A stretch of DNA of 64,000 nucleotides from Lachnospiraceae bacterium (GTDB lineage Bacteria; Bacillota; Clostridia; Lachnospirales; Lachnospiraceae): assembly GCA_017448245.1 (NCBI GenBank), contig JAFSLV010000041.1:1-64000 (forward strand). The letters run 5' to 3'. How positions within the stretch are numbered: position 1 is the stretch's first letter; every line of letters begins with the position of its first letter. This document shows positions 19,782 to 52,583 of the stretch, in pieces. A program made the position numbers and the translations under genes. The notes below the pieces were generated by a model. It worked only from the letters and a program-made list of their open reading frames with translations, searched no databases and had not been told where the DNA came from.

Positions 19782-19825
19782 ATTATATCATAAAACAGTC
19801 TCAGTGGTACCCTACATTTGTGGGG
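19782..19825 (-). promoter_or_regulatory. Regulon promoter 1: 7-2-7 operator + TATAAT (SPFH operon)
   Basis: Operator CCCTACATTTGTGGGG (19810-19825, plus strand) is a nearly perfect 7-2-7 inverted repeat. On the minus strand TGTAGG is followed by exactly 23 bp and then TATAAT (19787-19782). The -35 position reads GTACCA, far from consensus, which suits an activator-dependent promoter. This is the only member without a hairpin at the -10 region and the one with the best -10 box. Confidence 0.75.
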
Positions 19826-19878
19826 ACTTGGCGGCTGTCGCATCCGTCGTTTGTTTGCCGGGGATTGAAGTCCGTCCG

Positions 19879-20262
19879 TTACGGATATACCGATTCTCCC
19901 GCCATGGTGCGGTCACAGATGCTGATGATCGCGTCCGCGTTGACCTCCTTAAACCAGAAGCTTTCGACACCGCATTGTTTCGCTTTTACGATCCACTCCG
20001 TTTCGGGAGAGGATGTGATAATGATGACCTTTACCTCGGGATAATCGCTTTTGATGCGCTCCGCGGCTTCTATCCCGTCCGCGCCCATGGCGGTAAAAAT
20101 ATCCATCAGCACAAGATCCACGTTTCCGTTCAGCAGATAGATATCGCACACGTCCGCACTGTCCACCTCATAGAGCACGCGGTACCTGCCACTGTCCTCC
20201 AGTGCGCTTTTGACGATCTTGCGCTGCAGTTCCTGATCTTCCACGATCATTACATGTGTCAT
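19879..20262 (-). CDS. Stand-alone response-regulator receiver domain
   Basis: 127 residues containing only a receiver: acidic pocket E8/D9, phospho-acceptor D54 (LVLMDIFTAMG), and ITSSPETEW. It closely parallels the receiver halves of the LuxR-type regulators at 28510 and 49526 (ADGIEAAERIKSDYP, ESFWFKE, CDRTMAGESVYP). It stops exactly where those continue into the linker and helix-turn-helix. ATG 20262 lies 1 nt after the kinase stop behind GGAGGAG. It may be a phosphate sink or competing partner for the NarX-type kinase, or a regulator that lost its DNA-binding half. Confidence 0.85.
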   Translation of the reverse strand: MTHVMIVEDQELQRKIVKSALEDSGRYRVLYEVDSADVCDIYLLNGNVDLVLMDIFTAMGADGIEAAERIKSDYPEVKVIIITSSPETEWIVKAKQCGVESFWFKEVNADAIISICDRTMAGESVYP

Positions 20263-20263
20263 G

Positions 20264-21337
20264 TCATTCTCCTCCCCCCGCAGGCACATGGACGATGACG
20301 GTAAAGGACGGTGACGTTTCATAGCTGACCGTGCCGCCCTCCTTTTCCACACGCGCGCGCATACTCTTTAATCCGCCGCCCTCATTGATCACGTCAGGGA
20401 TGCGGCCGTTATTGGAGATCCGAAAGGTCCATCCGGCATCCGCTCCGGTATCGTCAAAGGAAAGCGTAATCTCATCCGCGTCGCCGTGACGGACCGCATT
20501 GATCATGGCGACTCTGGTGCAGGCAATGACGAGCTTTTGCATCCGTACGTCGTCCGTGGAGGGATGCCCCTGCACATTCAGTGTGGCGCCCAGTGCATCT
20601 GCGGCCTGCTCAAGGGGACGCAAAAAGGACATCTCTTCCGGTGTCTTCGTATCCCCCGTGCCAAAACGGTCCAGTTCGTCAATCGTCTTTTCCCATGCGG
20701 ACAACACTTCTTCCTGCGTGATCTTTGCGTCCTTTTCCGTCAGATAATAACGGGTAGACAACAGTACCTGGCCCAGACTGTCGTGGATGCGTTCCTTTGC
20801 CGCGAGATACGCCTGCGTCTGCGCACGCTCGCGCACCCGCGACTGATACTGTGTCAGTTGTGCTTCCGTGTCACGAAGCTTTTGTACCTGTCCCTCCAGC
20901 TCCCGCTCCCTTGCATAGAGCTCGCTGATATCATACGCCGTCAGCTGTACGACGGGTACGCCATCTTCTGTCCGCAAGTCTCTTTGCATCATCCATACTT
21001 CTTCTCCGCTGATTACGTGAAATGCCTCTGCCGAACCGTCCGACGTAAAGTCCGATCCCGCGGGGGCTGTCAAAAGAAATGCATGAAAATCCTTTCCGTT
21101 CATCAGACGCTGGTGCATTAACTTCAGGCTCAGTGACTGCATCGCCTCATTGTCCAGAAGAATGAGCCCGTCCTCACGGTAAAACGCAATCCCCATCGGC
21201 AGATGATCCATGGCATATTTCACCGACGCGTTGCCGATCCTCTCACGCAGGATCCTGCGGTTGAGCAATACAAAAAAATATAAGGCCAGCGGTATGAACG
21301 CGGCGGTTGCGAGATATATCCACCGTAATGTATTCAA
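20264..21337 (-). CDS. NarX/DegS-type sensor histidine kinase
   Basis: 357 residues: one N-terminal helix (about 7-25), a PAS-like sensor (about 40-140), a coiled coil, then a HisKA_3 dimerisation domain with H185 in KERIHDSLGQ. The ATP-binding domain has N-box N280 (MINAVRHG), SNNGRIP (309-313) and the glycine lid GGGLKSM. HPK7 kinases of this kind almost always pair with NarL/LuxR-type regulators, which fits the regulator that opens this operon (28510). It overlaps the preceding gene by 4 bp (ATGA) and precedes the receiver gene by 1 nt. Confidence 0.9.
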   Translation of the reverse strand: MNTLRWIYLATAAFIPLALYFFVLLNRRILRERIGNASVKYAMDHLPMGIAFYREDGLILLDNEAMQSLSLKLMHQRLMNGKDFHAFLLTAPAGSDFTSDGSAEAFHVISGEEVWMMQRDLRTEDGVPVVQLTAYDISELYARERELEGQVQKLRDTEAQLTQYQSRVRERAQTQAYLAAKERIHDSLGQVLLSTRYYLTEKDAKITQEEVLSAWEKTIDELDRFGTGDTKTPEEMSFLRPLEQAADALGATLNVQGHPSTDDVRMQKLVIACTRVAMINAVRHGDADEITLSFDDTGADAGWTFRISNNGRIPDVINEGGGLKSMRARVEKEGGTVSYETSPSFTVIVHVPAGGGE

Positions 21338-22935
21338 ACCGCACCTCCTTCCACGACGTTTTTGATCTCAAGTTCTTTTTCCCTGCCGCCGGTAAGCCCC
21401 ATGCGCAGGGAAAGACAGACTTCATCCGCGGTTGTCAGGAGCGTCATCCTGAGGAATTCAAGATCATCGAGCACCTCTTCGATCTGTATCTGAAAGGCGT
21501 CATAGATGCGCATGATCGAGTGGGCGGGCATAACGCCCCGTCCGTCTGTTTCGTTCCTGTAGATCGTGGAGACAGGGATGAGCACCAGCGCTTCGTTTGA
21601 TTCGTGCAGACAAAAGTGCAGCTCAGTGACCGGCAGATCCTTCGCCTTATCCGACAAAAGCACCAGATTGGAGCGCCGCTTGACGTAGGCTCCCAGCACA
21701 CCGATGACAGAGAGCAGGCGTTTCCTTTTTTCTTCCGAAGCGTCCTGCGCGGGCAGTGTGCGGCATTCTTCCACAAGACGCCTTATCCGTGCGATACGGT
21801 CTCCGGTCTCTCCGAGCGCCCGGTCATAGAGTCTTGCGTTTTCTCTTGTTCTTTCGGACTGCATCCGCATCCTGTTCTGCGCTTCGAGTCTTTCATTGGA
21901 ACGCAACAGATGCGATGCAACCTCCTCTCTTTCCGTGATCAGGGCAGAGATCCGTGTGACATCCTCGCGCCAGCGGATGACACCGCCGGAGATCGGAAAC
22001 TGTCTGGTGATGTACACGGGGAGCACGGATTTTTCTCCCGGAAAGCCGGCCTGCGATTTTTCCGCATAGCCACCCGACCGAAAATGTATCTCTCCGCGAT
22101 TGTCGAGGATCTCCATCGGTACCGTGCACGCATTGAAGCGTCTGCCGTAGCCGCTGTTCGATGGGATGAGCCGCATAACGATACACAGCTCCCAGAGCAA
22201 AAGCGTCGGAAAGCAGCTCATGACATCCGGCTCGATATAGCCAAAGCCGCCGGGGGAGCGGTCTGTCGCATACAAGGCCGTATAGATGAGTCCGGTCGCA
22301 ACGACCGCAACAAAAGGAAGCGCATAGGCGCGCAGATGGTTTCGTTTCAGCGTCCGGTAGAGAGAAGTAATCGCAAGACAGGCAAAGCCGAAAATCCAGA
22401 TCTGTGCCACAAAATACACGGGCCCGAGGTGATAACTGCCGGCATTTGCGACGGGGATTCCCTTCACGTCAAAGCGAAAGGCCAGCTGATGGTATTCGTT
22501 GGTGAGGATGACGGCAATGATCGCGATATACGGCAAAATGAGGAGTCTTGCACGTGCCGGCAAGCGATCGCTCTCCTCTCTTCCCACATACAGCGTCATG
22601 TACCAGGAAAGCAGGGGAATCAGCAGATTGGGGATATAGTACATGTACCACAAAAGATGCTCCGCCGGATAGACCCCCGCAAATACGACCTGACGAAGCC
22701 TTCCCAAAAACAGCAGCAGAATAAACAGCGTCACGACAAGTTTCTGGATCCTGCGGATATTTACCCCGGAGATCCGTCTTCCCGCGGACACCGACCACAG
22801 GACGATCATGACGCAGTACACTCCGTACTGGATCATCAGGGAGTTTTCCCGGGAAAACGCGGGACTCAGATCCAGTCCGCTGATGCCAAGCAGGATCAGT
22901 ATATACAGGACAACCTTAAGTATCCAGTACTTCAC
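21334..22935 (-). CDS. 7TM sensor protein with kinase-like cytosolic region lacking a recognisable ATPase
   Basis: About 533 residues. Seven or so hydrophobic helices fill the N-terminal 230 residues (histidine-kinase N-terminal 7TM type). A PAS-like segment follows (FNACTVPMEILDNRGEIHF), then a long coiled region and a domain with AYVKRRSNLVLLSDKAKDL. No H-box or canonical ATP-binding motifs are visible. It is probably a sensor that works with the NarX-type kinase encoded immediately downstream (ATGA overlap). The start is uncertain: GTG 22935 gives a protein starting just before the first helix and overlaps the receiver gene by 20 bp; a longer frame to 23001 exists. The Lys-Arg-Arg region resembles the N-terminus of the 27674 product. 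Confidence 0.7.
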   Translation of the reverse strand: MKYWILKVVLYILILLGISGLDLSPAFSRENSLMIQYGVYCVMIVLWSVSAGRRISGVNIRRIQKLVVTLFILLLFLGRLRQVVFAGVYPAEHLLWYMYYIPNLLIPLLSWYMTLYVGREESDRLPARARLLILPYIAIIAVILTNEYHQLAFRFDVKGIPVANAGSYHLGPVYFVAQIWIFGFACLAITSLYRTLKRNHLRAYALPFVAVVATGLIYTALYATDRSPGGFGYIEPDVMSCFPTLLLWELCIVMRLIPSNSGYGRRFNACTVPMEILDNRGEIHFRSGGYAEKSQAGFPGEKSVLPVYITRQFPISGGVIRWREDVTRISALITEREEVASHLLRSNERLEAQNRMRMQSERTRENARLYDRALGETGDRIARIRRLVEECRTLPAQDASEEKRKRLLSVIGVLGAYVKRRSNLVLLSDKAKDLPVTELHFCLHESNEALVLIPVSTIYRNETDGRGVMPAHSIMRIYDAFQIQIEEVLDDLEFLRMTLLTTADEVCLSLRMGLTGGREKELEIKNVVEGGAV

Positions 22936-23278
22936 GTATCGTACCCAACAGCGCGTTCGGCGAAAACGGCTTGGTGACATAGGCCGTTGCGCCCGCCTCA
23001 AGGCAGCGTGCCTTCATGTCCTCTTCTTCTTTGGCGGTCAGAAAGATGACCGGCACACCGGGAGCGATATCTTCCTCCCGTATCCTGCGGAAGGTCTCAA
23101 AGCCGTCGGTTTCAGGCATCAGGATGTCCATCAGCACCAGATCAATGCCTCCTTCGCCAAGCTTTTTTAACGCCTCCTCTCCGCTGTAGGCGGAGATCAA
23201 CTCATAGCTGTCGCGCACGATCCTTTTTGCCAGAATATGATGGATGTTTTCGTCATCCACCAGAAGAATCGTCTTCAT
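22916..23278 (-). CDS. CheY-like single-domain response regulator
   Basis: 120 residues, a bare receiver. Acidic pocket D8/D9 (LLVDDEN), phospho-acceptor D51 (LVLMDILMPETDGF), Thr in FLTAKEEED and the conserved Lys in YVTKPFSPNALL. It differs from the 19879 receiver family and looks like a classical CheY/Spo0F-type relay protein. It could take phosphate from the Hpt domain of the hybrid kinase encoded two genes upstream. It overlaps the HD-GYP gene by 4 bp (ATGA). Confidence 0.88.
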   Translation of the reverse strand: MKTILLVDDENIHHILAKRIVRDSYELISAYSGEEALKKLGEGGIDLVLMDILMPETDGFETFRRIREEDIAPGVPVIFLTAKEEEDMKARCLEAGATAYVTKPFSPNALLGTIREVLDT

Positions 23279-25161
23279 CGCACATCCTCCTGTCCCTTTC
23301 TGAGCAGTCCATAGGTTTTGCGGTAATGATCGGTCACGCCCTCCGAAAGGAGCGTTTCAATCTCCGCGGAAACCTGTATGTCCTCGAGCAGCGCCGTGAC
23401 TTTTGGTGCATAAAACGTGCCGCTGCCGGTTCTTGCCACATTGCGAAACTCCCGGAAGCTCATCTGTGCGTGATCGTCAAAACGCACCTCGTCGCACATT
23501 CCCTCCATGTCATTGGCAAGCCCGATAATGAGAGCCGCAAGATCCTCCTGCCCCCTTACGGTTTCCTCCGTCAACGGATATCCGCCCTTGCGGTCATAAT
23601 GCACATGATGCCGCAAAACGGTCCCGGCAAACGGCCTTGTGCTTGCAAACTGTTCCAAAAGCCTTGCGCCGGCCGCGGGAGCCGACTCCTGCAGCAGATA
23701 CTCCTCCTCAAAGAGCGGCCTGTGATAGGTGATGATGGTCTCCGCGATCAGCAGCTTTCCGACATCGTGCAGCATGGCGGCTCTTTTTACATAAGAGATG
23801 ATCTCTTCTGCGTCCGGATAGCCCGGTACGTTTTCAAAAAGCGTCCTGTCCTTTGCAAACAGATGCTTTGTGAGAATCCCGGAGATGCCTGCCACATTGA
23901 GGCTGTGCAGATAGAGCTGCGGATTGATCGCGCAAAGGAGCTGTACGGAGAGCTCCTCAAAGGTCATCCCGTCTTTCACCTCGATAAAGGCATCCATCGC
24001 GTGGGCAAGATAGCTCAAAAGAAAGGTGAGGGACCCGAGCTTGGGCATCCGGTGCACGTAGGTGATGAGATTGTGATAAAACCTTTGTATTGTCTGCTCC
24101 TGCGCTTTTGTCAGATGCGCGGGATCGAGCGTCATCATATACTCCGTCTGGGCAAAGATCATATTCATGTTGCCGTCATGGGAAAAGTCCTCTTTATCTG
24201 CGCCGTCGATCAGGGCAAGGATCTCCTTCCTGAAGCGCCGGACATCGATTTCTCCCGCGAGATACGCGTTGCGGTACATGCTCTGGTAGAGCGTTTCCTT
24301 TGCGCAGAGCGCGCCGTAGGAAATATCATCCTTTTTCCAGAGGGCTACCATCTGTCTGGTATAATCGTTGATTTCCGCAAGCATCTCCTCATCCGCACCG
24401 CTCTCATTGCAATACTCCGTCATCTGCGCAATGCCCTGGAGCGCGCGGAAGGTATGGTTTTTCCAGTTGTATTTGGAGGCCTGCGCGATATAAAAAGAAT
24501 CCTCCGCGAGGGCAAGCGCGCGTTTCATCGCCTCGATATTATTCGTCAGATAGGACACGGAGCCTTTCCCGGCGACACGCTCATACAGCGCATTGACGTA
24601 GCGGGAATTGATCAGCACGATCTCCTTTAAGTCATATTCCGAAAGGGAAGCGAAACGATCCTTCTCCAGATAAGAAAGCAGGTATTCGGCCGCTTTCAGC
24701 CCCTCCTTCTGGTAGGCCGTGTATTCGTCCCTGACCTTTGCGATGCGGGAGAGGATGATCATCATGTAGTAGCAGGTTTCGATCATCTGGTCGCAGGCTC
24801 TTAGCTGCGCGGGCGTATCCTGCTTGCGTGAGGCATCCTCCAGGAGCCTGCGCACGATTTTTAAGCGCAGATGCACGTCCACGCACTCGATATGCACGGC
24901 ATCCAGCAAGGACGCGTTAAAATCGGAAAGATCGCAAGCCTCCTCATCGGTCAAAAGACGGTCCGCCTGCAAAAGCGGCATGATCTCACGCTCGAGGATC
25001 TGTCTGCTGGTCCTCGAGAGCTCCCGGATCCTCGCATAGTTGCGTACAAAACGACTGCGGTATTCCTCCGCGCTCCGGATCCCGGAGATCTGCGGGGCGC
25101 TCAGCTCCCTGATCCATTCCGTCAGCTCCGTAAAACGGCTCCATTCCTCGCTTTTAGCCAT
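23275..25161 (-). CDS. HD-GYP-like domain protein
   Basis: 628 residues. The N-terminal 400 residues are helical with no recognised domain. The C-terminal part carries an HD-GYP-type hydrolase signature: LHSLNVAGIS, MLHDVGK (H465/D466), and HHVHYDRKGGYP (H518/H519). This corresponds to the HHExxDGxGYP motif, with some substitutions. Canonical HD-GYP proteins hydrolyse cyclic di-GMP; here catalysis is plausible but the degenerate motif leaves room for a pure signalling role. It overlaps its neighbours on both sides (8 bp upstream, 4 bp downstream). Confidence 0.8.
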   Translation of the reverse strand: MAKSEEWSRFTELTEWIRELSAPQISGIRSAEEYRSRFVRNYARIRELSRTSRQILEREIMPLLQADRLLTDEEACDLSDFNASLLDAVHIECVDVHLRLKIVRRLLEDASRKQDTPAQLRACDQMIETCYYMMIILSRIAKVRDEYTAYQKEGLKAAEYLLSYLEKDRFASLSEYDLKEIVLINSRYVNALYERVAGKGSVSYLTNNIEAMKRALALAEDSFYIAQASKYNWKNHTFRALQGIAQMTEYCNESGADEEMLAEINDYTRQMVALWKKDDISYGALCAKETLYQSMYRNAYLAGEIDVRRFRKEILALIDGADKEDFSHDGNMNMIFAQTEYMMTLDPAHLTKAQEQTIQRFYHNLITYVHRMPKLGSLTFLLSYLAHAMDAFIEVKDGMTFEELSVQLLCAINPQLYLHSLNVAGISGILTKHLFAKDRTLFENVPGYPDAEEIISYVKRAAMLHDVGKLLIAETIITYHRPLFEEEYLLQESAPAAGARLLEQFASTRPFAGTVLRHHVHYDRKGGYPLTEETVRGQEDLAALIIGLANDMEGMCDEVRFDDHAQMSFREFRNVARTGSGTFYAPKVTALLEDIQVSAEIETLLSEGVTDHYRKTYGLLRKGQEDVR

Positions 25162-27619
25162 GCTCCGCCTCCGTGTCTGTCAGTTCCTTCGCGTGCTTTG
25201 CCATCAGCGCCGCAAGATGCGATGCGATCTCTTCGTATTCCTCGATCAGGCGCGGTGTCTCCTCACGTATCGTTTCCATGTCCCCCTGCTCCGATATCTG
25301 CTCCAGATGATAGGCGCTCTCCGCAAGGTCCGTCGCGCCGATCATGCGGGAGGCGCTTTTGATCGCATGGACACGGATGGTGTATTGCCCGGTATCTCCC
25401 GCTTCGCTGTATTCTTTCAACTGACGGATGTTTTCCGGTATGTTGACATAGTATTCCTTCAGGATATCAAAGAGCGTCTCCGCGTCCTGACAGTGGTGGA
25501 TCGCCGTTCGGAAGCTCAATATCCCGGTATCGTCATAAAACCTGCGCAGTGTGCGTTCATCCGGCGAAGACGACATGGTTTTTTCTTCACCGGTTGCGTC
25601 TGTTTCTTCAGGTGCCGGCATATCCGCCACACCGCTCTCCTCATCCGCTTTATCCTCCGCGGGAGGATGCAGTTTTTCCTCCGGAAGATACTGCATGATC
25701 ATCGCTTCGAGCCTGGCAGCGTCAAGGGGCTTGCTCAGATAATCGGTAAAGCCCAGGGCCAGATACCTGCCTTTTGCCCCCTGCACCGCGTCCGCCGTCA
25801 GACAGATGACGCTTGTTTTCGTATTAACGCCGCCCTCCTGGCTGCGGATGTAAGAGAGGGTCTCCGCGCCGCTCATGCCGCTCATCCGCTGGTCGAGAAA
25901 GATGAGATCATAGGGGGTATCCTGGGTTAAGGCGATCGCGTCAAGTCCGCTCAATGCGGTATCGATCACGAGGTGCGTCTGCTTCAAAAGCTTTTGAAAG
26001 ACCAACAGATTGATGTCCGCGTCATCCACCACGAGGACTCTCGCATCCGGCGCCGAAAACCGCGCACGGTACGTATTGCTTTGCTCCTCCGTCGTAAAGA
26101 GCACGTTGCTCAGATCGCCGACTTTTTTTTCACCCTCCACACGCTGCGGTATGCGCAGGATAAATTCGGAGCCCTCGCCGTAGGCGCTTTTCACCTCGAT
26201 CCGGCCTCCCATCAGATCGGAGATCTCTTTGACGATCGCAAGGCCTAAGCCCGTCCCTTCGACGGAGCTGTTCTGCTTCATGTCGACACGCTCAAATTTG
26301 TCAAAGAGACGCTCCATATCCTCTTTGGCGATGCCGATCCCCGTATCCTTGACGCTGATGATCAGCGTTGTCATATCACGGTCTTCGACGCGCCGGATTC
26401 CGTCGCACTTAACGTGAAGCGTCACACTCCCCTCTCTCGTGTATTTCACGGCATTGCCGAGGAGATTGAGCATCATCTGCCGGAGCCTGATCACGTCCCC
26501 GTAAAAGGACTCCGGTGTCGATTCTTCGATATGTGCATGAAACGTAAGTCCCTTCTCCGCCGCGCGGAAGGAAATGATACCGCAGACGTCTTTTAGCACC
26601 TTCGTCAGGGAATAGACATCCTCGACGAGCGTAAGCTTGCCCGATTCGATTTTGGAAAAATCCAGGATGTCGTTGATGACCGACAAGAGGTTTTGCCCCG
26701 CGCGTTCGACGCTCCTGGCATACGAGAGAATCGTTTTGTCTTTTTCTTCCCTGAGGATCATCTCATTCATCCCGAGGATGGCGCTTAAGGGCGTGCGGAT
26801 CTCATGGCTCATATTGGACAAAAAGCCGCTTTTCGCCTCGGAGGCGGCATCGGATTGCTTTTTGGCTTCCTCCAGTTCGATCAGTGTCCTTTCGAGTGTC
26901 AGATAATCCGGCGTCTCCACGTTGAAATAAAAGACAAACATGCCAAAGGTCGCGCCGAGGTAATTGATCACGGGCGCGCGGCCGATAAAGGCCTGCAGCA
27001 ACACCGTCCCGATCGTGAGGAGAAAGGTCACGATGACCGTCATCTGCGCCCTTGTATTTAAGATGGAGCGCTTTCTCACGATGATCAGCATCGCGTAGAG
27101 CATCGGCCAGACCTCCATCGCGAAAGCGATGATCACATAAAAGAGACCGGACGGGCGTATCAGGGTGTTGTTTCTCATGATATACGGAACCGCAAAGATC
27201 AGCCATAAGGTCAAAAGAAGCGCCTCCGCAAAGGGAAGCAGGCGGTTGATCAGGGGCATTTTTGTGTCTTCCTGCAGTGTGCGATTGACAAAATAGAGCA
27301 CGTAGGCCGCAAAGAAATAACTCACGATCGTATTACAAAGAAGGGCAAACGCCTGCAGCATACAGACGGCGGTGTTGCCGAAACCGATGTCCGCACTCGA
27401 CAAAAAAACATACAGGCAGGTGACGGCATTTGCGAAAAGAACCGACAACAGCACAGAGGAAAAGGTGTTTTCTCCCTGTCTGTGTCTGCCCCTTTGCGCT
27501 TCCACGATCATTAACAGCAGCAGGTTGAAGAGCATCGCGATGACGGAGGCCTCGATGTATTGAAAGGCATCCGGCATGGATACTTTTTCGATGGTTATCG
27601 CTTCAAAAAAACGAAACAT
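25154..27619 (-). CDS. Hybrid sensor histidine kinase with receiver and Hpt domains
   Basis: 821 residues in the order: about seven membrane helices (15-245), HisKA domain with H272 (SNMSHEIRTPL), HATPase (LLGNAVKYT, DTGIGI, GTGLGLAIVK), receiver with D576 (IFLDQRMSG), an acidic linker and an Hpt domain with H751 (RVHAIKSASRMIG). This is a complete phosphorelay in one chain. It could pass phosphate to the free CheY-like receiver or to the LuxR-type regulator. Two starts are possible: ATG 27619 with AAGGAG 13 nt upstream, or ATG 27577 just before the first helix. The stop overlaps the next gene by 8 bp. Confidence 0.9.
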   Translation of the reverse strand: MFRFFEAITIEKVSMPDAFQYIEASVIAMLFNLLLLMIVEAQRGRHRQGENTFSSVLLSVLFANAVTCLYVFLSSADIGFGNTAVCMLQAFALLCNTIVSYFFAAYVLYFVNRTLQEDTKMPLINRLLPFAEALLLTLWLIFAVPYIMRNNTLIRPSGLFYVIIAFAMEVWPMLYAMLIIVRKRSILNTRAQMTVIVTFLLTIGTVLLQAFIGRAPVINYLGATFGMFVFYFNVETPDYLTLERTLIELEEAKKQSDAASEAKSGFLSNMSHEIRTPLSAILGMNEMILREEKDKTILSYARSVERAGQNLLSVINDILDFSKIESGKLTLVEDVYSLTKVLKDVCGIISFRAAEKGLTFHAHIEESTPESFYGDVIRLRQMMLNLLGNAVKYTREGSVTLHVKCDGIRRVEDRDMTTLIISVKDTGIGIAKEDMERLFDKFERVDMKQNSSVEGTGLGLAIVKEISDLMGGRIEVKSAYGEGSEFILRIPQRVEGEKKVGDLSNVLFTTEEQSNTYRARFSAPDARVLVVDDADINLLVFQKLLKQTHLVIDTALSGLDAIALTQDTPYDLIFLDQRMSGMSGAETLSYIRSQEGGVNTKTSVICLTADAVQGAKGRYLALGFTDYLSKPLDAARLEAMIMQYLPEEKLHPPAEDKADEESGVADMPAPEETDATGEEKTMSSSPDERTLRRFYDDTGILSFRTAIHHCQDAETLFDILKEYYVNIPENIRQLKEYSEAGDTGQYTIRVHAIKSASRMIGATDLAESAYHLEQISEQGDMETIREETPRLIEEYEEIASHLAALMAKHAKELTDTEAEHG

Positions 27620-29160: not shown

Positions 29161-29227
29161 GTCAAACGCCTCCCGTCCGGGCATGCTTTACCGATGCGCA
29201 TGACTGCCGGAGGTCTTTTTTGTGCGC

Positions 29228-30184: not shown

Positions 30185-30252
30185 GATGTTTTTCCTCCGT
30201 ATCGGAATACAGTGTTTTTCCCGTGCATAATCATGCGCTATGGCACATGATT

Positions 30253-40628: not shown

Positions 40629-40643
40629 AGGAGTACCTCCTTC

Positions 40644-41867: not shown

Positions 41868-41893
41868 GATACAGCCTCCTTATATGCTGTGCT

Positions 41894-43042: not shown

Positions 43043-43119
43043 GTCATGCCTCCTTACCTTTCATGTAGGGCTTTTGTTCACTGTTTCTGCGCACAAAAAA
43101 TGCGCTGTTGCCTGAAACC

Positions 43120-43163
43120 ACAATAGCGCATTTTTCATCTCTCCACATCCTACAAAAGGGGGG
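43120..43163 (-). promoter_or_regulatory. Regulon promoter 4: 7-2-7 operator + TATTGT (lipoprotein operon)
   Basis: Operator TCCTACAAAAGGGGGG (43148-43163, plus strand), the weakest right half-site of the set. On the minus strand TGTAGG, 23 bp, TATTGT (43125-43120). The -35 position reads ATGTGG. The hairpin AAAATGCGCT / AGCGCATTTT encloses the predicted start site. Confidence 0.8.
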
Positions 43164-45615: not shown

Positions 45616-46659
45616 TTACGCGACCTGTCCGCCGCAGGACGTGCAAAACCTCGTACCCGGTGCGATCTGTGCCTGACAGAACGGACAGCTCGTCGCCGCC
45701 TGCATCTGGGGTTGCTGCATCTGCGGCTGCATTTGGGACTGCTGCATCGGCATCCCCTGCGCCATCTGCGGCTGTTGCATCATCTGTCCCTGCATGGGCA
45801 TTCCCTGAGGCATCTGCTGCGGCATCCCGTAGCCACCCTGCATCTGAGACTGCATCTGCGGCTGCATCTGCGGCTGCATCTGACCCTGCGGTGTCCACTG
45901 CGGCGTAAAGCCCGCCCCCTGCACAGGCACTCCGTAGCCTCCCTGCATGCCGGGCGCGAATCCTCCCTGCGGAGGCGCCATCCCGGCCATCTGGTATACG
46001 GCATTTTTGATCTCCTCACCGAGCATCACATACTCGTTAAACTTTTCTTCCCCGCTCCGGATCCCGACCGAGCTGCTGCGCACGCTCCATCCGGCGGCCG
46101 CCGCGCCCATCATCCGGTTGCCCGCGCTCATCGAGCGCTCGCCGACCTTGACATAGCCGTTGGAGAGCGAGTAGCTGATCTCGTTGAAATAAGGCGTACT
46201 GACATGGATATTTACGTGAAAATCATAGCTGTATTCATAACGCGGCGGATTGTAGCTGACCTGCTTTCCGTCCTTGGTCTGCTTGAGCTCGTGGCGGCTC
46301 TCCTGCATGTCGAGCGTGCATCCCGTCGCCTGGGAAAAATCAAGGACATCCGGATTGGCCTTCATGAGATCGGAGGCGCTTGTCACCATAAACTTTCTCG
46401 CGTTATCATCGATGAGGAGCTTCGTCGTATTACCGATCGAGCGCGTCGTCTGAAACATCTGCACAGCCTGACGGTTTTGCTCGCGATAAGCGAGCTGCTC
46501 GTCGAGCTCTGCTTTGGATGCCTGCTTGCGGCTTTTGTACCAGGGAGAGAGCTTTCCCGCGCACTCCTTGCACATGTTGCCCTCCGCGTACTTTTTGTTG
46601 CCGAGCATGCCGATATTGCCGCCGCAAAAATCACAAGTCTTTTTGTCAAATAATCCCAT
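45616..46659 (-). CDS. DUF4428 protein with Gln/Met-rich linker and C-terminal zinc ribbon
   Basis: 347 residues. The N-terminal zinc-binding DUF4428 domain (CDFCGGNIGML, NMCKECAGKL) is followed by a helical region, a beta-rich middle (YEYSYDFHVNIHVSTPYFNEISY), a long Gln/Met/Pro-rich linker (repeats of PQMQ) and a C-terminal zinc ribbon (CPFCQAQIAPGTRFCTSCGG). The layout recalls the SPFH protein at 18377, which also joins a Gln/Met-rich linker to zinc ribbons. It is cytosolic by sequence. AAGGAGG precedes ATG 46659. The promoter at 46798-46841 lies 138 bp upstream, across a gene fossil. Confidence 0.82.
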   Translation of the reverse strand: MGLFDKKTCDFCGGNIGMLGNKKYAEGNMCKECAGKLSPWYKSRKQASKAELDEQLAYREQNRQAVQMFQTTRSIGNTTKLLIDDNARKFMVTSASDLMKANPDVLDFSQATGCTLDMQESRHELKQTKDGKQVSYNPPRYEYSYDFHVNIHVSTPYFNEISYSLSNGYVKVGERSMSAGNRMMGAAAAGWSVRSSSVGIRSGEEKFNEYVMLGEEIKNAVYQMAGMAPPQGGFAPGMQGGYGVPVQGAGFTPQWTPQGQMQPQMQPQMQSQMQGGYGMPQQMPQGMPMQGQMMQQPQMAQGMPMQQSQMQPQMQQPQMQAATSCPFCQAQIAPGTRFCTSCGGQVA

Positions 46660-46750: not shown

Positions 46751-46797
46751 CGGTCATTGTTTCCTGCGCACATAAAAATGCGCTATTGCATAAAACT

Positions 46798-46841
46798 ACA
46801 ATAGCGCATTTTTCATCTCTTCACATCCTACAAATGAGGGG
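46798..46841 (-). promoter_or_regulatory. Regulon promoter 5: 7-2-7 operator + TATTGT (DUF4428 gene)
   Basis: Operator TCCTACAAATGAGGGG (46826-46841, plus strand), on the minus strand TGTAGG, 23 bp, TATTGT (46803-46798). The -35 position is ATGTGA. The hairpin AAAAATGCGCTATTG / CAATAGCGCATTTTT is perfect over 15 bp. It closely resembles promoter 4, consistent with duplication of that locus. The operator ends 7 bp before the stop of the Cys-rich gene. Confidence 0.8.
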
Positions 46842-46848
46842 TTTTACT

Positions 46849-49314
46849 TTAGTCCAGGGAAATAAACTCCAGTCCGTCAGACGAAGGCTTTTTGATCGTG
46901 AACATCCTGCCCGGTTTGCCGTAACCGGCACGTAAGAGGAGGAAGGCCGCACACAGCGCCGTAAGCATCACCGATACGTGCAGAGCAAGCGGGAAGTCCT
47001 CTCCCGTCTGTCCCGTGCGTGCGTTCTCCGCGAGCTGTCCGTCGGTGCGCCTTGCGCCAAGGACCTGTTCACCGGCGGTCTGCGCCACTCCCTGGGCGGG
47101 TGCGCCGGGGGTCGTCTGTTGTGCGGCTGCTGCGGCGGTTGCACCGCCGTCGCCCGGTACGTTGTTGACCGTATTGTATGTAGTATTGTTCGTCGTGTTA
47201 TTTGTCGTGGTTGTCGTGGTGGTCGTCGTCGTGGTGGTCGTACCGCCCCCGGTCGTCGTCGTACCGCCTCCGGTCGTCGTGGTCGTACCCCCGCCGGTCG
47301 TCGTCGTGCCGCCGCCGGTCGTGGTCGTACCTCCGCCGGTCGTCGTCGTGCCGCCGCCGGTCGTCGTCGTGCCGCCGCCGGTCGTCGTGCCGCCCCCGGT
47401 TGTCGTGCCGCCCCCGGTTGTCGTGCCACCCCCGGTCGTCGTGCCGCCCCCGGTTGTCGTGCCGCCCCCGGTCGTCGTGCCGCCCCCGGTCGTCGTGCCT
47501 CCGCCTGACCCCGACCACGGGATCGTGACGGTTTCGATCACATATCCGCATTCCTCACAGCGGATTTCCTCTTTGCCGTCTGTCTTCGTCTCCGCATCCG
47601 GTTCCTTGACCCGTACCGGTTCGGATGCGCTATGTGATTCCGCTGCGTCTGCCGCACCGCAGTCTTCACAGACATGCCAGTGTCTTTTGTCATTGTGTGA
47701 CCATTCTTCTTCCACATGATCATGCTCACATTCCTCGTCATGATCGCATTTGTCCAGGCACTGATCATCCTCATAACACCAATGGTCGTCAAACTCCCAG
47801 GATTCCACGCAAAGATCATGCTCGCATCCGGCGTCCTCCGTACGTGCCGCACAGCATTCTTCGCACAGTCCGCACCAGTCGCACAGCTCATCCGGGTCAA
47901 AGCAGTCCCCGCATTCTTCGCAGAAATGATCCTCCCAGTCCTCTCCGTCCGGACAAAAATCGTGTTCGTCGCAGTGGTAGTCCGCGCGGCAGTCTTCGCA
48001 TTTGCCGCAGTCCTCACAGATATCATCGCATTCGCTGCAGCGCTCGCCGCAGTCTGCGCAAAACTCCGCACATGCGCTGCAGTGTTCCCCACAGTTTTCA
48101 CAGACGCTGACGCAGTCACTGCAAAGAATACAGTCGGGACAGTACGCGCCCGCCATGGCCAGGCACTCCCCGCAGTCATGGCAGTGCAGGTCATTGTCCA
48201 TGGCGCAGTTATGGCACATCTCACATTCGTCACAGTAGCCTCCGCCGCATTCGTCACAATGTCCGCACTCTTCGCACTTGATGGAATCTCCAAAGCCTTC
48301 CACAAAACAGTTTCCGCAGTCTTCACAGGCCGCGCCCTCTTCCAGATGACACTCCAGACAGGCATCGTCACAACCGCTGTTGCACTGTCCGGCGCAGTCA
48401 AAGCAGCGTTTGCACAGCATACACCGGTCATCGGAATCCACATGCTCCCCGCAGTCCGGGCAATGATATCCGGCATCGACCGCGCAATCGTTACACAGGA
48501 CACACTCCTCACACCATTCGTAACAGGCCGAGCATACATCCCCGCATCCGTCGCACAGAAAATGGTCATCCACCAGACACTGGCCGCAGTTCGGGCAGGC
48601 AAGATCCTCTTCCAGATGACACTCCAGACACAGATGGGAATGCCCTTCCGAGCATGACCCGCCGCAGTTTTCATAGCACCTGCCGCATTCTTCACACAGC
48701 GCATCCTCCTCAAAGTGTTCTCCACAGTCGACGCAGTGTGAGCCTTCCTCTATGGCGCAGTCCCAACACATCACGCAGACGTCGCAAAAACCTTTCGCTA
48801 TCACTGAACATTCCCCGCAGCCGATGCAATGATACTCATTTTCCTCTGCACAGTCTTCACACATCATGCAGTATTCACAAATTGCCACATCTTCCTCACA
48901 GGCGTGGCAATACTCGCAATGGCTGTCTTCCGACCAGCAATCGTCGCAGACCCCGCATACATCGCACAGATGGGCACGAGAATCACATTCGCCGCATTCC
49001 CTGCAGTGTTCCTTGTCATCGATCGCACATTCGACGCACTTCCCGTGATCCTCGCAGTAATCCTCTTCGCTTTCACAGACATCGCACTCACTGCAATGAT
49101 GCTCGTCCCCGCAGCCGTAACCTTTCGCGCAATGCGGGCCGTATTCGCACAGCCAGTCGTCATAGCGATATCCGCCGCAATGCTCACAATACGTACCGTC
49201 CTCATAATCCGCATGGGACGTGAACGGCACGGATGCGACCGCCAGCATCATACACAACAACAAAACCAACAGTTTCTTCGGGATGCCGATCCCCCTTCGT
49301 CTACCCTTTTTCAT
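46849..49314 (-). CDS. Extremely cysteine-rich surface protein with Thr/Gly stalk and C-terminal anchor
   Basis: 821 residues. A signal peptide (basic MKKGRRRGIGIPKK, hydrophobic core, cut near SHA) leads into about 550 residues holding, by my count, 112 cysteines. Most are CxxC pairs in a loose repeat such as CxxCGxC...HCxDCGE, rich in Asp, Glu and His. A Thr/Gly stalk of about 14 GGG blocks separated by three to five Thr follows, then an Asn/Thr stretch and a C-terminal membrane helix (LHVSVMLTALCAAFLLLRAGYG) with a short basic tail. Metal binding on the cell surface is the obvious possibility. The Cys pairs resemble zinc knuckles, but no catalytic motif is seen. ATG 49314 (GAGAGG upstream) is preferred over GTG 49332. 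Confidence 0.8.
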   Translation of the reverse strand: MKKGRRRGIGIPKKLLVLLLCMMLAVASVPFTSHADYEDGTYCEHCGGYRYDDWLCEYGPHCAKGYGCGDEHHCSECDVCESEEDYCEDHGKCVECAIDDKEHCRECGECDSRAHLCDVCGVCDDCWSEDSHCEYCHACEEDVAICEYCMMCEDCAEENEYHCIGCGECSVIAKGFCDVCVMCWDCAIEEGSHCVDCGEHFEEDALCEECGRCYENCGGSCSEGHSHLCLECHLEEDLACPNCGQCLVDDHFLCDGCGDVCSACYEWCEECVLCNDCAVDAGYHCPDCGEHVDSDDRCMLCKRCFDCAGQCNSGCDDACLECHLEEGAACEDCGNCFVEGFGDSIKCEECGHCDECGGGYCDECEMCHNCAMDNDLHCHDCGECLAMAGAYCPDCILCSDCVSVCENCGEHCSACAEFCADCGERCSECDDICEDCGKCEDCRADYHCDEHDFCPDGEDWEDHFCEECGDCFDPDELCDWCGLCEECCAARTEDAGCEHDLCVESWEFDDHWCYEDDQCLDKCDHDEECEHDHVEEEWSHNDKRHWHVCEDCGAADAAESHSASEPVRVKEPDAETKTDGKEEIRCEECGYVIETVTIPWSGSGGGTTTGGGTTTGGGTTTGGGTTTGGGTTTGGGTTTGGGTTTGGGTTTTGGGTTTTGGGTTTTGGGTTTTGGGTTTTTGGGTTTTGGGTTTTTTTTTTTTTNNTTNNTTYNTVNNVPGDGGATAAAAAQQTTPGAPAQGVAQTAGEQVLGARRTDGQLAENARTGQTGEDFPLALHVSVMLTALCAAFLLLRAGYGKPGRMFTIKKPSSDGLEFISLD
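47220..47512. repeat. Coding tandem repeat (Thr/Gly stalk of the Cys-rich protein)
   Basis: Eighteen-bp units such as GTCGTCGTGCCGCCCCCG (plus strand), with 21- and 24-bp variants carrying extra Thr codons, encode the (GGGTTT)n stalk. Near-identical units at the 3' side (about 47390-47500 especially) suggest recent expansion and likely length variation between strains. Confidence 0.85.
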
Positions 49315-49345
49315 CGTTTTCCTCTCTTTCACTGCAGTCGGGCGT

Positions 49346-49525: not shown

Positions 49526-50188
49526 TCAGTCCGCGATCACGATTCCGAGCTCCCTCGCCCTGACGGCAAGCGCCGTACGGGTACGGAAGCCGGTCTTGGA
49601 CATGATCTCGTTGATATAGCTCTTGACCGTCGAGGGAGAGATACAGAGTCTTTCCGCGATCTCCGTATTGGTGCTGCCGCGCACGATCTCCCTGAGCACA
49701 TCGTGCTCGCGCTCCGTCAGCAGGTCACTGCGGATATCGCCAAACGGCATGCCGGGCGCACGGTCGGGATAGATCGACTCTCCCTCCATCGTACGATGCA
49801 TGACCTCGAGGATGGAGGTACGCGCGCCCTCCTTATACCAGAAGCTTTCCGCACAGGCCTGCCTTGCCCGCCGTATAAAGCTGACCTCCGGCATGCTTGT
49901 AACAATGATGATTTTGACGTCAGGCGACTCCTGCTTGATCCTCGCCGCAGCCTCAAGACCGCTTGCACCCAGCTCCGTACAGACATCCATCAGAATCAGA
50001 TCGACGCCGCCCTTTAAGCAATACGCCGGCGCAAGATCGGCATTTTTGACCCGTCCGCACAGATGAAACGCATCCGACGCATCGATCAGGGTTTCAAACA
50101 TCTGCGCGATCAGGTCCTGGTCCTCCACGACCAGCACGCCGTGTGTTTTTGTATTTTTTTGTGTTGTCACACTCACCGGCGCAGTCAT
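49526..50188 (-). CDS. LuxR/NarL-type response regulator
   Basis: 220 residues: receiver with D68 (LILMDVCTELG), C-terminal LuxR helix-turn-helix (about 155-220: LLTEREHDVLREIVRGSTNTEIAERLCISPSTVKSYI pattern). It is a close paralogue of the 28510 regulator. It lies 34 nt after the 50223 lipoprotein gene behind GGAAGGAG and has no kinase beside it. It is therefore transcribed from the 7-2-7 promoter at 52540-52583, which suggests feedback. It probably shares the NarX-type kinase of the 19.9-29.2 kb operon. Confidence 0.92.
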   Translation of the reverse strand: MTAPVSVTTQKNTKTHGVLVVEDQDLIAQMFETLIDASDAFHLCGRVKNADLAPAYCLKGGVDLILMDVCTELGASGLEAAARIKQESPDVKIIIVTSMPEVSFIRRARQACAESFWYKEGARTSILEVMHRTMEGESIYPDRAPGMPFGDIRSDLLTEREHDVLREIVRGSTNTEIAERLCISPSTVKSYINEIMSKTGFRTRTALAVRARELGIVIAD

Positions 50189-50222: not shown

Positions 50223-52331
50223 TTACATCTCCTGCCTGTAAAGCACTGCCGTCACGTCTCCCGACGCGTAATGCATGGTGAGGACCATCTGGTATGAGCC
50301 GCCCATCTCTTCAAGGAAATACAGGTCCGCCAGAAGGTATCCGGTATCGTCCACCAGCTGCCAGGCAGGCTGGTCGGGATTGCCGTTATAGACGACCTCG
50401 CCCGTATGATAATCACCGGTGGTGCCTAAGATCATCTCAAAACTGCCGCGGTAGGCATACATCCACAGCTCATCTCCGTTTTCGAGATTCAGCCAGACGC
50501 CCTCCCTCTCCTCCGTTTCCGGAGCGGCGTACACGGGGCCCGAATAGGCCGCATAAGGCAGGACAAAGGCGTTTGCAAGCGGGATCCCTCCGATCTCGTC
50601 AACCGTACTCCACGGTCCGTAGGGCGAGGGTTTGGCATAGGCGATGAGATACTCTCCGCTCTCTTCCACTTCAAACAGGACATAGTGGAGGTTATCCGTA
50701 TGCGTCATGCGGATCACCGTCCCGGCGGGATACGTCTTTGTGCCGCTTTCCATAATGGAAACGCCCATTCCGTCCCAGTACGGTGCAATGAGTGGAACCG
50801 CAAGCGTAAATGACGGCTGCTCTCCCGTGACCCTGTAATCGGAGGGCGTATCCGGTGCCATGAAATGAGGCGCAGGCAACCCGTCCTCTCCGACCGAGTT
50901 TGAGCGTACACAAAACACCCTTCCCTCGGCGAACGGATTGTCCAGAATAAAGCTGATAATCCCTGTATGGAAATCAGCGGGATTCAGCGGCGGATAATCA
51001 TCCGGTTCAAACCCTTCCTCCGTGCTGCCCGTATGATACAGCCCGTCCACTTCCACCTCATATACCTCGAGCGAACGCACGCGGTATTCTCCCTCGTGGC
51101 AAAGATACAAAAAGGTTTTTCCCTGCGACTTTGCAAGATAGACCTCCGTACCGAAGTTCATGTACGGGTCGATATCGCCTCCGTCATCCGTGATCTCTTC
51201 CTCTCCGTACAGCACTTTGACCTCTCCGGTATACAAGGTGTAGGAAACGCCGTATTCCGCGATCTGCCTCAGCGGCACCTCTACGCGCAGCGGCAAGGAC
51301 CCCTCCCCCGTATCGATCAGATAGTCGGTCTCCGTCTCAATCCGGGCAAAGTATTCCTCCGGCAGATCGGTATAAGAGGCTTCAAAAATCTCCGGTGCCA
51401 TGGTATACGGCACGGTCACTTCAAAACAATCGGAAAGCACGGTATATCCGCCGTTTGCCTCAAACGCGCGCATCGCGTCATACGAGGCAATCTCGTCAAA
51501 AAACATCATCCGCAGCCCGAGATACGACGGCGACCAGGTATAGACGCTGTCCGCATACAGCCGGTTGCCTTCGAGGATGCTTTGAATGTCCTTTGCGAGT
51601 TGCTCCCTGCTCTCAAACAGATCCCCGGCCGCTGGATTGGGGCAGTTGTCGACATATCTTGCATAGATCAGGTCCGCAGTCAGTACGCTCAGCGCTTCGA
51701 TGTCCTTCACCACATCCGTCAGTGCGATTTCCGCACCGGTTTCGGCATCAATATTGTATGTGGTAAACGACTTGTCCCTGACATCCGCAAAATACGCGCT
51801 TCCCGCGTTATCGGTATCACGCCTGAACGACAGGGATAATACCCGGGAGTCCGCACGATACAGCGTGCAGTCCTCCCCGGTCCATACATACATATCCTCG
51901 TTTGTTTTCGCTTCGCGCTCGGCCGTCAGGTGCATGTCGCGCACCCTGGTAGCTGTTTCTTCTCCGATGCGGGCAAGAAACCGTTCCGCTCCTTCCGGGA
52001 GATACGGTTCCGTTGATGTCACCACGTCATACGTATGGAAAAAGGCGCTCCCGTATTCCCCGCGGCTGACGCTGTCATAAGTCTGTTCAATCGAAATCTG
52101 ATAGTGCTCGATGGACGGATCCGTACGGTTGACAACAGAATCGGTGGTATCCTCCGGCTGTTCTTCGTCTTCTTCCCCTTCATCCGCCCGGCTTCTTCCG
52201 GTGCTGTTGCGCACGGAGGTTCGAGGCGACCCCGTATCCCTTGTGCCGGTATTGCCTGCGCCGCAGCCGGACAGGAGGGACGCTGTCATAATCAGGATCA
52301 GGATGATGCTGTATGCTTTTTTTGCTTTCAT
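50223..52331 (-). CDS. Large secreted lipoprotein of unknown function
   Basis: 702 residues. Lipoprotein signal MKAKKAYSIILILIMTASLLSGC (Cys 23). A Ser/Arg/Asp-rich linker follows (TSVRNSTGRSRADEGEEDEEQ), then beta-rich sequence resembling DUF3298/PdaC-type modules (YADVRDKSFTTYNIDAETGAEIALTDVVKDIEAL, YLGLRMMFFDEIASYDAM). The second half has EVYEVEVDGLYHTGS and a C-terminal WLNLENGDELWMYAYRGSFEMILG. The function is unknown. ATG 52331 (GGAG upstream) gives the lipoprotein start; the longer frame to 52391 overlaps the small basic peptide gene. Confidence 0.8.
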   Translation of the reverse strand: MKAKKAYSIILILIMTASLLSGCGAGNTGTRDTGSPRTSVRNSTGRSRADEGEEDEEQPEDTTDSVVNRTDPSIEHYQISIEQTYDSVSRGEYGSAFFHTYDVVTSTEPYLPEGAERFLARIGEETATRVRDMHLTAEREAKTNEDMYVWTGEDCTLYRADSRVLSLSFRRDTDNAGSAYFADVRDKSFTTYNIDAETGAEIALTDVVKDIEALSVLTADLIYARYVDNCPNPAAGDLFESREQLAKDIQSILEGNRLYADSVYTWSPSYLGLRMMFFDEIASYDAMRAFEANGGYTVLSDCFEVTVPYTMAPEIFEASYTDLPEEYFARIETETDYLIDTGEGSLPLRVEVPLRQIAEYGVSYTLYTGEVKVLYGEEEITDDGGDIDPYMNFGTEVYLAKSQGKTFLYLCHEGEYRVRSLEVYEVEVDGLYHTGSTEEGFEPDDYPPLNPADFHTGIISFILDNPFAEGRVFCVRSNSVGEDGLPAPHFMAPDTPSDYRVTGEQPSFTLAVPLIAPYWDGMGVSIMESGTKTYPAGTVIRMTHTDNLHYVLFEVEESGEYLIAYAKPSPYGPWSTVDEIGGIPLANAFVLPYAAYSGPVYAAPETEEREGVWLNLENGDELWMYAYRGSFEMILGTTGDYHTGEVVYNGNPDQPAWQLVDDTGYLLADLYFLEEMGGSYQMVLTMHYASGDVTAVLYRQEM

Positions 52332-52353
52332 CTGTTTTCTCCGTATCCTCCGT

Positions 52354-52479
52354 TTATGCAAGGCTGTACTTTTTGCGGCTCTTCCAGACACGTCTGCGGA
52401 CGTAGTCTCTCTTCATCCTGAAAAGGACGGTCGCTGCGGTATTTTTCACAGTCCCTGCGGTGCGTCTGATCTGCTTCAT
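52354..52479 (-). CDS. Small basic protein (41 aa) opening the 52.5-49.5 kb operon
   Basis: ATG 52479 with AAGGAG 8 nt upstream encodes 41 residues with about 14 Lys/Arg and no acidic residue except one Asp (MKQIRRTAGTVKNTAAT..., RMKRDYVRRRVWKSRKKY). There is no signal peptide or membrane helix. It ends 22 nt before the 50223 lipoprotein start and is the first gene behind regulon promoter 6. A nucleic-acid- or membrane-binding peptide, or a leader peptide, is possible. It is too short for family recognition. Confidence 0.6.
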   Translation of the reverse strand: MKQIRRTAGTVKNTAATVLFRMKRDYVRRRVWKSRKKYSLA

Positions 52480-52539
52480 CGTGCCTTCTCCTTTGCTTAT
52501 GTGATCATGCGTACAAAAAATGCGCTGTTGCCTGATACC

Positions 52540-52583
52540 ACAATAGCGCATTTACCCTCCCCGCACATCCTACATTTGAGGGG
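52540..52583 (-). promoter_or_regulatory. Regulon promoter 6: 7-2-7 operator + TATTGT (regulator-containing operon)
   Basis: Operator TCCTACATTTGAGGGG (52568-52583, plus strand), on the minus strand TGTAGG, 23 bp, TATTGT (52545-52540). The -35 position is ATGTGC. The hairpin AAATGCGCT / AGCGCATTT encloses the start site. The nearest upstream gene is divergent, so this hairpin has no transcript to terminate. Confidence 0.8.

Follow-up and report, generated by a model that had tools for sequence, protein, structure and literature searches.

A Putative NarL-type Regulon of Surface-protein Genes behind Six Uniform Promoter Units in a Lachnospiraceae Genome

Results

Six 44-bp Units with One Operator and One Spacing

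The DNA analyzed was a 64,000-nucleotide stretch of the genome of a gut or rumen Lachnospiraceae bacterium (GenBank assembly GCA_017448245.1, contig JAFSLV010000041.1, positions 1 to 64,000 of the forward strand; hereafter the window). It carries six 44-bp units, each composed of an inverted repeat (the operator) and a promoter, together with genes for two NarL/LuxR-type response regulators (RR1 and RR2), for sensor proteins, and for lipoproteins and secreted proteins. When the window was read again, the units were found on the minus strand exactly where a first-pass annotation had placed them, and the distance from TGTAGG to TATNNT was exactly 23 nt in all six.

Unit 1, 19782..19825, minus strand: operator CCCCACA AA TGTAGGG at 19810-19825; -10 element TATAAT at 19782-19787
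Unit 2, 30253..30296, minus strand: operator 30281-30296; -10 element 30253-30258
Unit 3, 35136..35179, minus strand: operator 35164-35179; -10 element 35136-35141
Unit 4, 43120..43163, minus strand: operator 43148-43163; -10 element 43120-43125
Unit 5, 46798..46841, minus strand: operator 46826-46841; -10 element 46798-46803
Unit 6, 52540..52583, minus strand: operator 52568-52583; -10 element 52540-52545

The anatomy and spacing of the units can be read directly from the DNA. The operator is a 16-bp inverted repeat of the form 7-2-7, CCC(C/T)NCA-WW-TGTAGGR, which becomes perfect in relatives (CCCTACA-WW-TGTAGGG), and the promoter joined to it has a poor -35 element. The operator centre lies 30.5 nt before the -10 element. 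Numbering the -10 as -12 to -7 puts this centre at -42.5, close to the -43 claimed in the first-pass annotation. Upstream open reading frames (ORFs) end 4 bp before unit 3 and 7 bp before unit 5.

Sixteen units were aligned, seven from the same genome and nine from the related genomes G063 and G064; they had been picked by a pattern that fixed some positions, but not 17, 18, and 37. C was present at unit positions 1-3 and 6 in 16/16, and each position of TGTAGG was kept in 15-16 of the 16, the distal half-site being looser than the proximal one. T occupied position 17 (-34) in all units and G occupied position 18 (-33) in 15; G at position 37 (-14), TA at 39-40, and T at 44 were invariant. G at -14 is a feature of extended -10 promoters, and it is kept in each of the six window units. 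The description of the -35 region as unlike TTGACA held in part: the element is poor, but five of the six window units retain both T at -34 and G at -33, the exception being the first. A conserved ATGCGC ahead of the -10 belongs in part to the 5' arm of a hairpin that is absent from the first-pass annotation (see below). With a site near -42 that adjoins or overlaps the -35, the layout is that of a predicted class II activator site.

When up to three mismatches were allowed, a search of the window with the 44-bp pattern found only the six units, against 0.53 expected matches, and none of 100 shuffles reached six. A scan of the whole 2.54-Mb genome, which had been proposed as a check, gave eight matches with at most two mismatches, six of them in the window, and three for a reversed-pattern control. 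The window matches all had 0 mismatches and lay within 33 kb. The other two had one and two mismatches and lay, respectively, upstream of an L,D-transpeptidase gene (Pfam YkuD; C3:207633) and upstream of an ORF for a zinc-ribbon protein followed by a lipoprotein-like ORF (C10:22127). Manual inspection added a ninth unit on the minus strand at C3:7242 (TCCTACA-AA-TGTAGGA with TACTAT at 22 nt), where a lipoprotein start codon follows about 31 nt past TACTAT. The genome holds at least nine units, a minimum because the flanks were read for part of its 49 operator-like 16-mers (the six window sites, C3:207633, C10:22127, C3:7242 on both strands, C20:7238, C37:83090, C45:30640, and C19:601). Among the 16-mers with flanks read, none lay inside a gene with a -10 in place. 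Rather than being scattered at random relative to gene starts, all nine units precede a start codon, and for six of them the first gene behind the unit codes for a secreted protein or lipoprotein (signal sequences judged by eye).

Recurrence in Congeners and in a Wider Family

A looser form of the unit was searched for, with at most one mismatch, in 145 near genomes including the source genome (G000). At least three matches were found only in G000 (eight), G063 (six), and G064 (three), which are also the genomes with response regulator homologues of at least 57% identity. Exact matches numbered seven in G000 and two each in G063 and G064. In both congeners units precede relatives of the secreted protein behind unit 3; in G063 they also stand before relatives of the DUF4428 protein of unit 5 and of RR2 and before a lipoprotein gene ahead of the hybrid kinase. 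At two G064 sites (L081:296 and L081:8213) the -10 is one base further away; both were retained, and one stands before a relative of the unit 3 protein. L081:4436 scored as a site without a -10 and was dropped from later counts.

Scanning a genome collection with six regulators yielded at least 503 relatives. Eighty loci were kept, most of them titled gut or rumen Bacillota and including Ruminococcus bromii; within the class, the regulator was present at E <= 1e-40 in 20 of 391 genomes. Perfect 7-2-7 palindromes followed by a TATAAT-like box at a distance of 22 or 23 nt were counted in 77 loci with no sequence assumed. There were 25. In 20 dinucleotide shuffles the count averaged 1.1 and never exceeded 3, and at other distances it was 0-6; some loci are near-duplicates (e.g. 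L130, L132, and L141), and the counts are not independent. With the half-sites found, a list derived from these same 77 loci, 68 matches had the box at 22 nt and 20 had it at 23 nt, the mean elsewhere being 4.7.

Plus-strand sites (5/6 pairs) clustered around the regulator gene: 22 lay at -250 to 0 from its start and 34 at +500 to +1000, with none in its first 500 bp, whereas bins further off held 1-6 sites per 250 bp and minus-strand bins at most seven. This clustering suggests that the regulator gene itself and the next transcription unit are the commonest targets. Of the 88 half-site matches, 24 led to the regulator, 53 to another ORF, and 11 to no called gene. Among those 53, 39 led to a secreted or lipoprotein-like product, compared with 257 of all 1002 ORFs, as assigned by a simple signal-peptide rule and with near-duplicates included. 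DUF4428, SPFH, and Zn-ribbon proteins and relatives of the window's secreted proteins recurred in these loci.

Genome-wide, two R. bromii genomes had two sites each, all adjoining the regulator. Six genomes of the GGCTGA class had ten sites, nine adjoining it, with a pattern that misses some known sites such as those of L166. In the eight genomes together, 13 of 14 sites adjoined the regulator and the reversed-pattern controls gave 0, pointing to a regulon that is mainly local. The operator in R. bromii 5AMG and ATCC 27255 (L106 at 10648 and 11331; L143 at 10648 and 11326) reads TGTGCC-N4-GGCACA, and the second site in L106 reads TATGCC-N4-GGCACA; the -10 boxes of the two ATCC 27255 sites are TATAAT and TACAAT. 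A GGNTGA pattern applied to the 391 genomes gave 18 matches and four control matches. Of the 18, TCAGCC-type matches stood beside a regulator on its contig only in G326 and G356; the remaining matches may be unrelated hairpins.

Regulators, Recognition Helix, and Half-site

RR1, 28510..29184, minus strand: NarL/LuxR-type response regulator with Response_reg and GerE domains, recognition helix TVRDYIK
RR2, 49526..50188, minus strand: paralogue of RR1 with 58% identity, helix TVKSYIN, behind the unit at 52540
REC3, 19879..20352, minus strand: receiver-only paralogue lacking a helix-turn-helix, key receiver residues kept
REC4, 22916..23278, minus strand: stand-alone receiver

That the region encodes two LuxR/NarL-type regulators was borne out: both RR1 and RR2 matched Pfam Response_reg and GerE above cut-off. 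The phospho-acceptor Asp and switch Lys residues D23, D68, and K119 were invariant across 17 aligned receivers. RR2 is not E. coli NarL or NarP proper, with 66 and 68 bits against equivalog cut-offs of 250 and 343, respectively, and among the 25 NCBIfam models listed for each regulator none reached its cut-off. By sequence, the relatives of RR1 with solved structures include VraR, DesR, and NarL; a further one, 4wt0, listed without a gene name, we take to be LiaR. REC3 is probably a kept part of the system, as indicated by its key residues and by receiver-only relatives in the three congeners G063, G064, and G075. It might perhaps serve as a phosphate sink.

The 77 loci were sorted by the three residues that follow 'TV' in the recognition helix, which presumably correspond to NarL positions that touch DNA, and the best-scoring site near each regulator was taken. 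RDY went with GTAGGG in five of seven loci, a sixth having GTCGGG. KSH went with GGNTGA or GGCGGA in 30/35, KTH with GGCTGA or AGCTGA in 3/10, KYH with GGCGGG in 3/8, and KNY with GGCACA in 3/3; KRH had GGCACA in one of two loci, and RSH had three different TAG-type half-sites. There was no cross-over between the RDY and KSH classes (5/0 vs 0/30): GGNTGA was seen in no RDY locus and GTAGGG in no KSH locus. The association is a lead towards a possible recognition code and no proof of one.

Sensors and Phosphorelay Proteins

HK_B, 20264..21337, minus strand: kinase with an IHD phospho-acceptor motif and a probable ATPase domain
HK7TM, 21334..23001, minus strand: putative seven-transmembrane (7TM) pseudokinase with Tyr in place of the phospho-His
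HD-domain protein, 23275..25161, minus strand
Hybrid kinase, 25154..27619, minus strand: HisKA-HATPase-REC-Hpt
279-residue protein, 27674..28513, minus strand: DHp-like stretch IHADMG (motif identified by eye), no Pfam match

The phospho-acceptor sites of the two sensor proteins were surveyed in 97 sources, which gave 87 hits for HK7TM and 86 for HK_B. In ungapped hits the HK7TM position was Tyr in 78 of 84 and His in none, and the HK_B position was His in 83/83. HK7TM matched HisKA_7TM with 26.3 bits, below the cut-off of 28.6. HK_B matched HATPase_c at an E value of 1.2e-4 (22.9 bits, below the cut-off of 26.4) and gave no HisKA_3 match in Pfam; its ATPase N and GG motifs were conserved in seven aligned sequences. 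Judging from the family-wide Tyr, HK7TM looks like a sensor pseudokinase partnered with HK_B. HK7TM was recognized in 73 of the 80 loci and HK_B in 74, gene counts that retain L094-L096 and L113, which are the same contigs as the G063, G064, and G075 loci and were left out of the trees.

Genes behind the Units

Unit 1: SPFH, Zn-ribbon, and TPM operon (Pfam), 18377-19711, 17278-18384, and 16348-17265, minus strand
Unit 2: lipoprotein (lipobox identified by eye), 29288..30184, minus strand, first gene of the unit
Unit 3: secreted protein, 32062..35046, minus strand, 985 residues from ATG or 994 from GTG, weak Ig-like matches
Unit 4: genes in 36961..43042, minus strand, for lipoproteins (41894-43042, 40644-41867, and 39135-40628) and a 725-residue protein (36961-39138)
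Unit 5: DUF4428/zinc-ribbon protein, 45616..46659, minus strand
Unit 6: lipoprotein, 50223..52391, minus strand, first gene of the unit, followed after a 34-bp gap by RR2 and then by an 827-residue protein
Cys-rich secreted 827-residue protein behind RR2, 46849..49332, minus strand

Four of the units had been described as heading secreted-protein genes. For the unit at 30253 this needs correction, because it heads a minus-strand run of nine close or overlapping genes rather than a plain secreted-protein unit: a lipoprotein, RR1, the DHp-like protein, the hybrid kinase, the HD protein, a receiver, HK7TM, HK_B, and REC3. The sole wide gap in this run, 103 bp between the lipoprotein gene and RR1, contains a promoter-like match and, at 29274-29235, a terminator-like stem, and RR1 may accordingly not depend on unit 2 alone. 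Two closely similar terminator-like stems (GACCGCTGTGGTATCAT...ATCACGGCGGT plus a T-tract) occur at 29235-29274 before RR1 and at 36847-36883 at the 5' end of an AAA-ATPase-like ORF, possibly as copies of a dispersed element.

No PspA domain was found by Pfam in the three genes of 16348-19711. The 725-residue protein of unit 4 had no Pfam or NCBIfam match and no obvious signal peptide; it shares 69% identity with its G063 counterpart. The 827-residue protein contains 114 Cys residues, 62 CxxC motifs, and a long Gly/Thr tract, and relatives of it occur in 6 of the 80 loci. Taken as a set, the candidate targets suggest a programme that concerns the cell envelope or surface: they comprise surface proteins, lipoproteins, the L,D-transpeptidase, and the SPFH/Zn-ribbon/TPM module.

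A Hairpin over the -10 Element

Unit 2: inverted repeat over the -10, 30233..30264, minus strand, z -3.8, no T-tract
Unit 3: terminator-like hairpin over the -10, 35113..35151, minus strand, z -3.3, T-tract, the sole one in the terminator scan
Unit 4: hairpin and T-tract over the -10, 43096..43135, minus strand, z -2.5
Unit 5: hairpin and T-tract over the -10, 46774..46813, minus strand, z -5.0
Unit 6: weaker hairpin over the -10, 52518..52553, minus strand, z -1.9

In many units of this genus the -10 element lies within the 5' arm of a hairpin and the expected transcription start within its loop. Folding of unit positions 29-80 gave z < -2 in 9 of 20 units of the genus, including four of the six window units, and in 2/33 units of a hand-picked comparison set from the wider family. 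The arms differ and still pair, with double changes at 6 of 11 pairs among ten sequences that were chosen because they fold, so that the counts lean towards structure. The terminator scan omitted the hairpins of units 4-6, and its totals were near those of shuffles (23 vs 16.2 and 20 vs 16.7). Units 4, 5, and 6 share parts of their spacer and leader.

A transcript started at the unit would lack the 5' arm, and read-through from the gene in front would have the whole hairpin, often with a T-tract. A built-in terminator is our best guess for the hairpin's role. Unit 2 fits this reading poorly: the gene in front of it is divergent, and its hairpin lacks a T-tract.

Discussion

We consider it very likely, on the combined sequence evidence, that each of the six units is a class II sigma-A promoter that depends on an activator and belongs to a local, self-activating NarL-type regulon with surface proteins as its output. 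The earlier idea that one operator defines a local LuxR/NarL regulon is upheld by the clustering of the units, their place before gene starts, their recurrence in congeners, the geometry shared by the family, in which half-sites track the recognition helix, and the local confinement of sites; it has to be extended by three more likely promoters that lie beyond the coordinates first given. We infer that a phosphorylated homodimer of RR1 and/or RR2 would bind the 7-2-7 repeat at -42.5, at the upstream edge of the poor -35, and would help RNA polymerase to start from the fixed -10. The membrane sensor pair, HK7TM and HK_B with its phospho-His, would convey the signal to the regulator, in this clade also through the hybrid-kinase phosphorelay. 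Because two of the genome's own units have a regulator gene downstream, and many relatives have the regulator gene immediately behind a unit, the circuit is most likely self-activating. Its output would consist mainly of local lipoproteins, secreted proteins, the DUF4428 protein, and the SPFH/Zn-ribbon/TPM module, with the L,D-transpeptidase elsewhere. The hairpin would stop read-through and would not form in the unit's own transcripts, which would make the targets depend on the activator.

Several observations weigh against this interpretation or its extension to the family. Taken alone, the operator-like 16-mers show no enrichment across the genome (49 vs 95 control matches), and C10:22127 is at background by score, since the reversed control gave three matches; its place before a start codon and its neighbours speak for a true unit. 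Of the 145 genomes, 34 yield a match when a single mismatch is allowed, usually no more than one or two matches each; G112 has one exact match, G128 has three matches to the reversed control, and G075 carries a regulator homologue of 55% identity yet no unit. The distance distribution in the wider family shows a smaller second peak at 27 nt (19 matches), perhaps from boxes overlapping the first, and the TG that follows the operator is not universal (TA or TT in R. bromii, GG at GGCGGG sites). As to the helix, the best site fitted no class, or none was found, in 5/35 KSH, 7/10 KTH, 5/8 KYH, and 3/3 RTH loci. The link with the half-site is mostly by clade: the receiver-only tree has five operator states and five changes, and on it a single origin of the GTAGGG group was not rejected (p 0.31), with operator states entered by hand for 55 of 90 rows. 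The full-length tree separates this group's two parts. The genome also has further response regulators of lower similarity to RR1 and RR2, one of which might be the binder, and RR1 may be uncoupled from unit 2 by the terminator-like stem and promoter-like match in front of it. The tie between hairpins and a same-strand ORF within 70 bp upstream is weak: such an ORF precedes 8/9 hairpin units and 4/10 others (p 0.057), for 19 of the 20 units (L078, near a contig end, was left out) and with putative genes as the upstream ORFs.

Among other explanations, repression in place of activation is the one that fares best, and we still regard it as unlikely. An operator touching the -35 can block sigma, and the TATAAT -10 elements of relatives could work alone; the position at -42.5, the strict phasing, the poor -35, and the presence of the regulators inside their own regulon nevertheless fit activation better. 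The palindrome might instead act as RNA, forming a hairpin and then a terminator hairpin in a leader that comes from further upstream, in the manner of an attenuator or riboswitch. CCCUAC-N4-GUAGGG and UCAGCC-N4-GGCUGA could indeed pair around a tetraloop, and a hairpin does follow in this genus. Yet the proximal arm is conserved whereas the distal one varies (CCCCTC, TCATAC), which breaks the RNA pairs, and the following hairpin is mostly absent in the wider family, where it reached z < -2 in just the two of 33 units. The start codon is also only about 20-60 nt past the -10 in many loci, and no Rfam match was found in 19000-53500. These points make an RNA element very improbable.

Slightly less probable again are promoters of an extracytoplasmic function (ECF)-type sigma factor, with TGTAGG as -35, TATNNT as -10, and no activator. 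Two conserved blocks at a fixed distance and a non-consensus -35 would suit such a factor, but the upstream block forms a palindrome with two-fold symmetry that becomes perfect in relatives, and it varies with the recognition helix of the neighbouring regulator while the -10 stays near TATAAT. In many relatives the -10 is TATAAT itself, the ordinary sigma-A box. Least credible of all is a small dispersed repeat whose copies landed in intergenic gaps: several near-identical copies do lie within 33 kb, and units 4, 5, and 6 are alike in parts of spacer and leader, but in G063 and G064 a unit occupies the same place before relatives of some targets, the spacers have diverged around a conserved operator, G at -14, and -10, all nine units of the genome precede starts, and the geometry recurs with other sequences in other families.

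The activator-dependent regulon that we favour resembles several known systems in part. VraSR, DesKR, and LiaSR combine a HisKA_3-like kinase with envelope- or membrane-type output, to which the present system can be likened, and VraR and DesR rank high among the relatives of RR1 with known structures; the additional 7TM pseudokinase, the hybrid-kinase phosphorelay, the receiver-only paralogue, and the operator set the present system apart. In LuxR-type class II promoters the lux box is centred at -42.5. The operator position and -35 contact predicted here are similar, but the regulator is a response regulator and has no autoinducer domain. With E. coli NarX/NarL the system shares a regulator made of receiver and GerE domains, a 7-2-7 repeat just upstream of the -35, and two-component control. 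It differs in the half-site, in the single site per promoter at a fixed distance, in its Bacillota host and surface-protein targets, in having regulators downstream of their own units, and in the sensor pair with its 7TM pseudokinase. Passages of PMC7419079 report that E. coli NarL activates ogt from -44.5.

The operon behind unit 1 recalls B. subtilis pspA-ydjGHI. According to excerpts of PMC8581546, YdjI (an SPFH protein) acts together with YdjG and YdjH as the membrane anchor of PspA during stress, and the operon is sigma-W controlled with pspA in front. SPFH, Zn-ribbon, and TPM genes adjoin in both organisms, the equation with YdjI, YdjG, and YdjH being by Pfam domain only, whereas here a NarL-type unit stands in front and the three genes lack a PspA domain. 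DUF4428 is described, in a portion of PMC13190303, as a domain in homologues of the SNIPE nuclease. The term HisKA_7TM occurs in papers on archaeal kinases and on archaeal and eukaryotic kinases.

In the literature searched, with subscription journals mostly outside it, we found no description of this system; searches on the family, on R. bromii regulators, on helix covariation, and on promoter/terminator overlap gave, among the papers listed, none pointing to it. The sensor/regulator family appears widespread, and it is undescribed in that literature. More broadly, gut and rumen Clostridia may share a family of self-activating 7TM-pseudokinase/kinase/NarL systems, each with a local island of surface-protein genes. 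In such a family the promoter geometry would be invariant, the half-sites would diversify with two or three helix residues, and one genus would have built the -10 into a terminator, leaving the activator as the sole route to target expression. We put this generalization forward tentatively, at slightly short of an even chance.

The likely DNA sites and targets of the family, including those in cultured R. bromii, are linked here by sequence alone and are directly testable. Related regulators with different operators in one fixed promoter layout present a possible code between helix and half-site which, if true, would supply a natural set of separate activator/promoter pairs. The paired kinase with a conserved Tyr in place of the phospho-His, and a promoter possibly laid inside a terminator, add to the interest of the family. 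The system may offer a first handle on when gut Clostridia display large uncharacterized surface proteins.

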